Positions 13,866-15,959 of a stretch of 33,224 nucleotides of DNA are shown here, one piece after another. Numbering within the stretch: position 1 is the stretch's first letter; each line of letters opens with the position of its first letter. The DNA is from Clostridiales bacterium DTU074. Lineage in GTDB: Bacteria; Bacillota; Clostridia; Caldicoprobacterales; Caldicoprobacteraceae. Both the position numbers and the translations under genes were made by a program. Under the pieces are notes generated by a model, which saw only the letters and a program-made list of their open reading frames with translations, searched no databases and was not told where the DNA came from. The stretch lies in the NCBI GenBank assembly GCA_001513075.1, contig LFSE01000025.1:1-33224 (forward strand), written 5' to 3'.

Positions 13866-14041
13866 TTGCCATATTACACAGATAAGCTTTGGATACAATT
13901 TAGGAACGGATTCTATATTATGGGAATATATTGTAATATATCAAACGCCAGAATCAGCCATGGACTGCAGACAAATAGCATCTGTTAACGAAGATCGGTC
14001 AGCGGCGTCAGCAGGATTTGTATTACTGTGGAGGGAAATAT

Positions 14042-14320
14042 ATGGTGTACGGTGAAAGTTACGGCCTGATTGCATTTCACTCGAGGCAACATGCTGTTCA
14101 TTTCAGCCAGGTTTTGAAAATGGCAGGGTGTTCAAATCAAATAGTGCCTTCTCCCAAAGGGATATCCTTGGGATGCGGCCTGTCGATAAAGTTTTCCCTG
14201 CACATGACTGCCAAGGTTATGAATATATACAGCAGATATAAGTATCCCATCACCGGTTTTTATCAGATAGAGCATAGGGGAGGTCAGACTATTATCAGAA
14301 GAATGCCCTATCCCCAATAA
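14042..14320 (+). CDS. DUF3343 (putative Se/S carrier-like) small protein
   Basis: A 92-residue protein matching the DUF3343 pattern: an early hydrophobic strand with a helix (YGLIAFHSRQHAVHFSQVL), a middle PSPKGIS stretch, then a conserved Cys-Gly pair in SLGCGLSIKF. The family is described as putative selenium/sulphur carrier-like on weak grounds; actual function is not established. Usual partners (cysteine desulphurase or selenium genes) are not in the window. The basic C-terminal extension of about 35 residues past the usual domain is less conserved to my eye. I chose ATG 14042 because GGAGGG at 14030-14035 lies 6 bases upstream; a longer frame from 14018 would swallow the ribosome site. 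Confidence 0.75.
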   Translation: MVYGESYGLIAFHSRQHAVHFSQVLKMAGCSNQIVPSPKGISLGCGLSIKFSLHMTAKVMNIYSRYKYPITGFYQIEHRGGQTIIRRMPYPQ

Positions 14321-14403: not shown

Positions 14404-14432
14404 TTGCATAAATAGATTGATGTTGTTAGAAT
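14404..14432 (+). promoter_or_regulatory. Candidate promoter for panT-coaX
   Basis: TTGCAT (14404-14409), a 17-base spacer and TAGAAT (14427-14432). The predicted start, about 14438-14440, falls at the 5' edge of the folded leader. Confidence 0.4.
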
Positions 14433-14438
14433 AATATT

Positions 14439-14527
14439 CATCAAAGCCGGTATCCCTCGTAGAGCCGGACTTGGATTTAACTCTATGAGACAAGATACCG
14501 TCAGGTATCCGAAGCCGGAACTTGAAC
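14439..14527 (+). promoter_or_regulatory. Structured 5' leader of the pantothenate uptake operon, riboswitch-like
   Basis: CGGTATC (14448-14454) pairs perfectly with GATACCG (14494-14500). Nested inside, CTCGTAGAG (14456-14464) pairs over all 9 positions (one G-U) with CTCTATGAG (14481-14489), leaving a 16-base loop. A second GGTATC at 14504-14509 can instead pair with the same GATACC across a 4-base loop, so the two folds are exclusive. The motif GGTATCC then GCCGGA(A)CTTG occurs twice, at 14449-14473 and 14504-14524, the second copy ending 3 bases before the ribosome site. This is the architecture of a cis-regulatory RNA. The known pan motif RNA, found upstream of pantothenate synthesis genes and often in tandem, should be compared; I could not recognise it here. 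Confidence 0.5.
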
Positions 14528-14540
14528 GGAGGTGTAAAAC

Positions 14541-15137
14541 ATGACACTGACCACACGCAAATTAGCAGTTACAGGTATGCTGGCCGCAATTTCGATCATC
14601 CTCGGTCTTACTCCTGTGGGCTTGATTCCCTTGCCCTTCAGCCCTACCAAAGCCACCATCATGCATATCCCGGTTATCATCGGGACCATTGTTGAAGGCC
14701 CTATTGTCGGACTTATTATTGGTGCCATATTCGGCTTATTTAGCATGTATCAGGCGGCTACAATGCCTACCAATCCTGCCCAGTTTGTATTCCTGGATCC
14801 GCTGGTCGCCCTTTTACCCCGCTTGCTCATTGCAATAACCACCTATTATGCTTACAGAGGAGTGAGGCAGGTTTTAAGCAAGGATACCCGGGCGGTGGTG
14901 CCTGGTATGGTGGCAGCTGCGGTGGGAACATTGACCAATACAGTAGGTGTGCTTCTGACAATCTATTTACGCTACGGGGCTAAGTATGCTGAAATACTTG
15001 GCATACCCCCCGAAACGGTGGGAGGCTTTATATTGGGTATCGGTATAACCCACGGGATTCCCGAGATAATAGTGGCTGTAATCATTGTAACAGCAGTACT
15101 GCAAGGTTTACAGCGAATTTACCGAAAAGTTTTTTGA
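14541..15137 (+). CDS. panT: ECF transporter S component, probably pantothenate-specific
   Basis: A 198-residue protein with about six membrane segments, typical of the small substrate-binding subunits of energy-coupling factor vitamin transporters. The start RKLAVTGMLAAISIILG and the following PTKATIMHIPVIIG loop are common in this superfamily. Pantothenate specificity is inferred mainly from the downstream type III pantothenate kinase gene, 54 bases away. The ATPase and EcfT subunits are not here and would be shared from elsewhere. The ribosome site GGAGG (14528-14532) precedes ATG 14541 by 8 bases. The upstream leader suggests regulation at RNA level. Confidence 0.8.
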   Translation: MTLTTRKLAVTGMLAAISIILGLTPVGLIPLPFSPTKATIMHIPVIIGTIVEGPIVGLIIGAIFGLFSMYQAATMPTNPAQFVFLDPLVALLPRLLIAITTYYAYRGVRQVLSKDTRAVVPGMVAAAVGTLTNTVGVLLTIYLRYGAKYAEILGIPPETVGGFILGIGITHGIPEIIVAVIIVTAVLQGLQRIYRKVF

Positions 15138-15143
15138 CACACT

Positions 15144-15167
15144 ATAGGCAGGGTTTTCCCTGCCTAT
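15144..15167 (+). other. Intercistronic 10-bp hairpin between panT and coaX
   Basis: ATAGGCAGGG (15144-15153) and CCCTGCCTAT (15158-15167) form a perfect stem with a TTTT loop. The following bases CTAATTTG are not a T run. It may partly terminate, protect the panT mRNA 3' end, or set the ratio of the two proteins. The coaX ribosome site follows about 11 bases later. Confidence 0.7.
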
Positions 15168-15191: not shown

Positions 15192-15959
15192 ATGCTGTTG
15201 GTTATGGATATAGGTAATACCAATACCGTTGTTGGGGTATACGATAACAATACATTGATAAATCATTGGCGTCTGTATACTGATCGGGATAAATCGGCTG
15301 ACGAAATTGCCATGATTATAATGAATCTGTTCGGGCATCATGGCATATCCCATAGGAGTATCAATGCCATTGCCATTTCATCGGTTGTGCCCACTATGAT
15401 GGGAGCTCTTGAAGAGATGTGCCGGAAGTATTTTAATATAGAGCCGCTAGTCGTTGGACCGGGGGTAAAGACCGGGATAAACATCCGCTATGAGAATCCC
15501 AAGGAGGTAGGGGCTGACAGGATAGTAAATGCGGTGGCCGCATATGAGATATATGGCGGACCGATTATTGTGGTGGACTTCGGAACGGCCACCACCTTCT
15601 GCGCTATTTCCGAGAAAGGTGAGTATTTAGGCGGATGTATTGCTCCGGGGATTACCATATCCACCGAGGCATTGTATCAGAGGGCTGCCAAGCTGCCTAA
15701 GGTTGAACTTGTTAAGCCGCCTCAGGTTATATGTAAGAACACGGTTAACAGCATACAAGCCGGGATCGTTTACGGCTATATAGGACTGGTGGATCATATC
15801 GTAAAGCTTATGAAAAAGGAGCTGGGGAGGGAGGACACAAAGGTAATTGCTACCGGCGGTCTGGCCGGTATGATAGCCGAGGGGTCCGGGACCATACAGG
15901 AGATTGCTCCCTATCTGACCCTGGAAGGTCTGAGGATAATATATCAAAGAAATCAGTAG
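15192..15959 (+). CDS. coaX: Type III pantothenate kinase
   Basis: A 255-residue cytosolic kinase for the first step of coenzyme A synthesis (pantothenate to 4'-phosphopantothenate). The type III class is feedback-insensitive to CoA. The phosphate loop [10 protein letters not shown] starts at residue 6. [13 protein letters not shown] and the ASKHA-type [10 protein letters not shown] follow, then GGCIAPGI and NTVNSIQAG. Length is normal. The ATG at 15192 follows GGAG with good spacing. With panT it forms an uptake-and-trap pair. Because CoaX itself is not feedback-inhibited, control at the upstream leader would make sense, but that is inference. Confidence 0.96.

Follow-up and report, generated by a model that had tools for sequence, protein, structure and literature searches.

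How does a bacterium that should depend on imported vitamin B5 adjust the making of its importer, and what part does the leader in front of the importer gene play? The question is raised by the panT-coaX operon of Clostridiales bacterium DTU074, analysed here within a window of 33,224 nt (assembly GCA_001513075.1, contig LFSE01000025.1, positions 1–33,224 of the forward strand). PanB and PanC were not found in this genome, which is 96% complete, and the organism should therefore depend on pantothenate uptake. CoA feedback has been reported solely for PanK-I and not for PanK-III (CoaX) (PMC12570885), in line with the original prediction, which took CoaX to be free of feedback inhibition; since type III kinases lack this feedback, control at the level of uptake would be sensible. 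The parts of the locus are the following.

14404–14432, + strand: putative promoter, TTGCAT (14404–14409), 17-nt spacer, TAGAAT (14427–14432)
14444–14472, + strand: pan hairpin H1, from covariation and a match to the synthesis-operon pan model; P1 14444–14446/14470–14472, P2 14447–14451/14464–14468, P3 14453–14454/14462–14463, bulged A14452 and A14469
14448–14500, + strand: long alternative stem of the original prediction, dominant in the predicted free fold; it excludes H1 P2 and H2 P1
14498–14529, + strand: pan hairpin H2, from covariation and a match to the synthesis-operon pan model; P1 14498–14501/14526–14529 (proposed switch helix), P2 14502–14506/14520–14524, P3 14508–14510/14517–14519, bulged A14507 and A14525
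14528–14534, + strand: Shine-Dalgarno sequence GGAGGTG, its first two bases within H2 P1
14541–15137, + strand: panT, ECF transporter S component for pantothenate, 198 aa (PF12822; family-profile PDB matches)
15192–15959, + strand: coaX, type III pantothenate kinase, 255 aa (PF03309, NF009847)

The panT frame opens with an ATG at 14541, and a PDB search with a profile of its family gave 4rfs_S and 6zg3_C as sole matches, both of which we take to be ECF-PanT. The order panT then coaX recurs in 37 of 78 related loci. A promoter had been proposed at the 5' edge of the leader, and the -10 box TAGAAT would place the transcription start near 14439, although the -35 box TTGCAT is weak and a scan for consensus promoters did not list this one; similar boxes occupy the corresponding position in Caldicoprobacter leaders and in those of the window's genus. 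Between the upstream ABC transporter operon and the leader lies a small ORF (14018–14320) with a putative Se/S carrier domain (PF11823). Between panT and coaX, positions 15144–15167 form a perfect 10-pair hairpin (ATAGGCAGGG-TTTT-CCCTGCCTAT), and several relatives have similar GC-rich hairpins at the equivalent position; this hairpin may limit the expression of coaX or protect the panT message.

Tandem hairpins of the pan family

Leaders were taken from the panT homologues of relatives and from 80 named genomes (Caldicoprobacter, Clostridium, Tepidibacter, Lutispora, Caloramator and others). Across Clostridia, panT leaders carry tandem hairpins of a common design directly ahead of the start codon. 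In both, an A bulging from the 3' strand separates the basal P1 from the five-pair P2, and a second bulged A, in the 5' strand, separates P2 from the short P3. The hairpins were parsed cleanly by script in 70 of 86 panT leaders and in the window; several Clostridium leaders with a misplaced H2 in the first parse were left out of the statistics. In an alignment of 43 leaders the bulged A's are invariant or nearly so, and standard pairs fill 91.4% of cells against 76.4% after shuffling. Double-sided changes were seen in 17 of the 23 pairs (10 of 11 in H1), double changes numbered 172 against 55.8 in shuffles, and the covariation score was 0.539 against 0.252, a value reached by none of 500 shuffles. 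Sliding the partners by one column halved the pairing. H2 P1 is short (2–4 pairs, and merely GU/AC in some lineages) and had no double-sided changes among these leaders, so that covariation backs it less than P2 and P3. With covariation and conservation extending over dozens of genera, and with models that find each other's members reciprocally, the chance that the leader is an unregulated, functionless structure is vanishingly small.

By its model matches, the panT leader is a member of the pan family (RF01749). The pan motif had been named beforehand as the nearest described candidate, which was borne out; the leader had also been thought to represent a class unlike those described, and such a new riboswitch class is ruled out by the same matches. 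The Rfam pan cut-off of 36.2 bits is passed by orthologous leaders of relatives, G001 from the same genus with 37.3 bits, G011 with 44.7, and G047 and G058 with 41.8 each, and in 6 of 20 named panT loci. The window leader itself was not reported by cmscan with Rfam, either for pan (gathering score 36.2 bits) or for any riboswitch class; weak matches to RAGATH-20, mir-4659 and the XIST A repeat lay far under their cut-offs and were dismissed as chance. Our own model (A3) drew exclusively on synthesis operons, with 28 pan RNAs whose alignment is 93.0% paired with double changes in 15 of 21 pairs. With filters off it matched the window at 14444–14533 with 33.7 bits (E 6e-6), the next-best place scoring 12.5, and with filters on it missed the window and gave 38 matches among panT loci. 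The missing Rfam match thus looks like a loss to the speed filter, since our own model finds the window only with filters off. In the reverse direction, a model of panT leaders gave 25 matches among 29 synthesis-type loci. The window also carries the hallmarks of the family, namely tandem hairpins, two bulged A's per stem and pantothenate-pathway genes downstream. With filters, RF01749 misses many panT-type pan RNAs (loci L061–L138), and an update of its seed with panT leaders would help.

The long alternative stem

The original prediction rested on two perfect nested stems and a competing hairpin. Both stems are present, with seven Watson-Crick pairs between 14448–14454 (CGGTATC) and 14494–14500 (GATACCG) and an inner stem between 14456–14464 (CTCGTAGAG) and 14481–14489 (CTCTATGAG) that is not quite perfect, as it holds one G-U pair (14459–14486). 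The competing hairpin is confirmed in that GATACC at 14494–14499 is able to pair with GGTATC at 14504–14509. The region 14430–14530 has a folding energy of -31.1 kcal/mol, where shuffles have -20.6 ± 3.0 (z = -3.47; equalled by none of 200), and the long stem dominates the predicted fold, with a probability of 0.98 for the pair 14450–14498. Relative to the optimum, the pan fold costs 4.5 kcal/mol in the window, and 10.4 and 8.1 kcal/mol in the close relatives L062 and L065; the corresponding values are 1.5 kcal/mol for L061 and 0 for L063 and L064.

Could the long two-part stem then be the main regulatory structure, with the pan hairpins secondary to it? Its dominance in the predicted folds of the window and its close relatives speaks for this, as do two leaders of a sister family in which the outer stem keeps 7 of 7 pairs with other letters (TAGCATT/GATGCTG and TGGCATC/GATGCTG). 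We nevertheless regard it as very unlikely. Among the 43 leaders the two named stems are paired in 54.8% of cells against 54.0% after shuffling; the long stem is limited to Caldicoprobacter-like genomes, which are the window's family, and in part to one sister family, and is absent from most panT leaders. Its strands moreover overlap the strongly conserved pan hairpins. When panT leaders were tested for duplexes against shuffled linker or flank, the P1 strand had no general upstream partner outside the window's family, and by this test and the pair counts the long stem is ruled out as a conserved fold family-wide. The proposal of a structured cis-regulatory leader for the pantothenate-uptake and type III kinase operon thus stands, and that of the nested stems as its conserved fold does not; H1 and H2, which are better conserved, had been overlooked. 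Missing covariation and a match to a described class had been named in advance as the outcomes that would speak against the prediction, and each is found in part, the first for the named stems family-wide and the second in the pan family. Since it is thermodynamically dominant in the window's family, the long stem may be a local ON fold, and a lineage-specific role of this kind is possible from the modelled energies.

One basal helix on two expression platforms

At panT genes, H2 P1 extends with its 3' strand into the Shine-Dalgarno sequence, and the two coincide in nearly all of the leaders. A signal of the type A[A/G]CGG[A/G]GG was found at H2 P1 in 67 of 80 panT leaders by a strict definition and in 75 of 80 by a loose one, with the start codon mostly 6–9 nt downstream of it. 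The 3' end of the leader had been described as abutting the ribosome site; the arrangement goes further, in that the last helix strand (14526–14529) overlaps the Shine-Dalgarno sequence (14528–14534). Synthesis-type pan RNAs are followed by an intrinsic terminator in 28 of 30 cases, and the 3' strand of P1 with its extension (e.g. CAGAGGGAU) is complementary to the 5' arm of the terminator (AUCCUUCUG). The duplex of P1 strand and terminator arm has a mean energy of -7.4. Exchanging the arms among loci weakens this to -6.3 (the best of 300 swaps reached -7.1), and shuffling them gives -5.0. The layout is that of riboswitches, with a conserved aptamer-like structure overlapping either the Shine-Dalgarno sequence (panT) or the antiterminator strand (synthesis operons). 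This double use of H2 P1, as read from the sequences, is new, and we infer that formation of P1 turns the gene off on both platforms. Computed accessibility of the window's Shine-Dalgarno sequence is the same in the two folds (mean unpaired 0.22 against 0.25), a measure that is uninformative here because in either fold the sequence also forms pairs with bases near the start codon.

It seems probable to us that the tandem pan RNA is an OFF switch at the level of translation, for panT and probably also for coaX. Under ample supply of the CoA pathway, H1 and H2 would be stabilised by an effector; in the stabilised H2, P1 (14498–14501/14526–14529) would close over the ribosome site and panT would stay untranslated, and with a drop in supply P1 would open and the importer PanT could be made. 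Within the window's family the 5' strand of P1 (14498–14500) would be sequestered by the long stem, which would thereby constitute the ON fold. In synthesis operons the formation of P1 would instead free the terminator; the same binding event would lead to termination there because the P1 strand is part of the antiterminator.

Uptake genes, the effector and known systems

For pan RNA, an orphan since 2010, synthesis operons were so far the only known location. The motif was described upstream of panB, panC and panD, with synthesis genes only in the published text (PMC2864571), and two RNA-seq studies placed it in panBCD 5' UTRs. The literature searched gave no mention of pan RNA at uptake genes (panT). 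A phylum-wide search with the panT-leader model gave matches in 54 of 398 genomes, and the 29 matched loci that were inspected, with frames assigned by sequence motif, lay directly before a panT-like frame in 27 cases and before panB in 2. The Rfam pan model exceeded its cut-off in 144 of the 398 genomes; 30 of these loci were inspected and lay before panB, panC-panD, birA-panT, or a Rossmann/DUF2520 protein followed by panB or panC, this protein being PanE/PanG-like by context. The presence of pan RNAs at uptake genes, often panT with coaX, and in a genome without panB and panC, is new at the level of genome sequence, and the family appears to control vitamin B5 uptake as well as its synthesis.

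Some loci depart from the simple pattern. In L208 and L212, a bioY-like S component (PF02632 in L208), panT and coaX form an apparent single operon downstream of a pan RNA and terminator, which by the order of these elements places the terminator platform at uptake operons as well. The genome that contains L203 (G384:C44:25950–29000) carries a pair of panT-like genes; both have a pan RNA and a ribosome-site platform of their own, and two further pan RNAs of this genome lie at synthesis genes. In L210 (G398:C1:11300–14350) a pan RNA and terminator stand before an OPT-family transporter (PF03169, 329–1981) and a type II pantothenate kinase (NF009842, 1989–2831), which makes the transporter a candidate for a new importer of pantothenate or pantetheine.

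The occurrence of pan RNA at synthesis, uptake and kinase genes, and in a genome without PanB and PanC, would place the signal at or below pantothenate in the pathway, and its position at an importer gene in pantothenate auxotrophs makes it unlikely that the signal requires pantothenate synthesis. The importer-gene location points to the shared end product, and the effector should be CoA, one of its precursors or a protein sensing them. Direct sensing and sensing through a protein partner seem to us about equally likely, each having a little less than an even chance. If direct, the tandem hairpins would bind CoA, 4'-phosphopantetheine or pantothenate free of protein; the identical logic of the basal helix on two platforms, the regulation of one pathway at its synthesis, uptake and kinase genes, and the lack of a recurring regulator gene beside pan RNAs in the loci inspected are consistent with this, and the want of a CoA riboswitch has been described as conspicuous (PMC9971707). 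Each hairpin is, on the other hand, poor in conserved unpaired bases, and the literature searched since the 2010 description yielded neither a ligand nor a protein partner for pan RNA. A protein-binding element was proposed by Weinberg et al. 2010 from the simple tandem structure (PMC2864571); a dimeric protein sensing CoA status would then sit on both hairpins, much as on the bulged-A operators of coat proteins, and the repeated bulged A's within a short stem suit such a partner, although no candidate is found among the neighbouring genes. The widest claim, in which pan RNA would be the missing sensor that directly detects CoA or a precursor and, across Firmicutes, stops synthesis by termination and uptake by ribosome-site closure, we hold to be rather unlikely. 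With about 100 nt and the ribosome site inside the second hairpin, panT leaders are compact objects for ligand tests.

Among known systems, the guanidine-II riboswitch also consists of two small tandem hairpins that govern access to the ribosome site, but its loops and conserved bases appear to differ from those of the window leader. THF and other vitamin riboswitches occur upstream of ECF S components and are precedents for RNA control of an ECF vitamin importer, whereas the window leader has no Rfam match to any riboswitch class. The closest likeness is to the described pan motif itself, in the tandem hairpins, the two conserved bulged A's per stem, the pantothenate-pathway genes and the reciprocal model matches. 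The copy in the window differs from it in standing before the importer gene panT (with coaX) and not before panB, panC or panD, in having H2 P1 over the Shine-Dalgarno sequence and not over an antiterminator, and in its extra long alternative stem.
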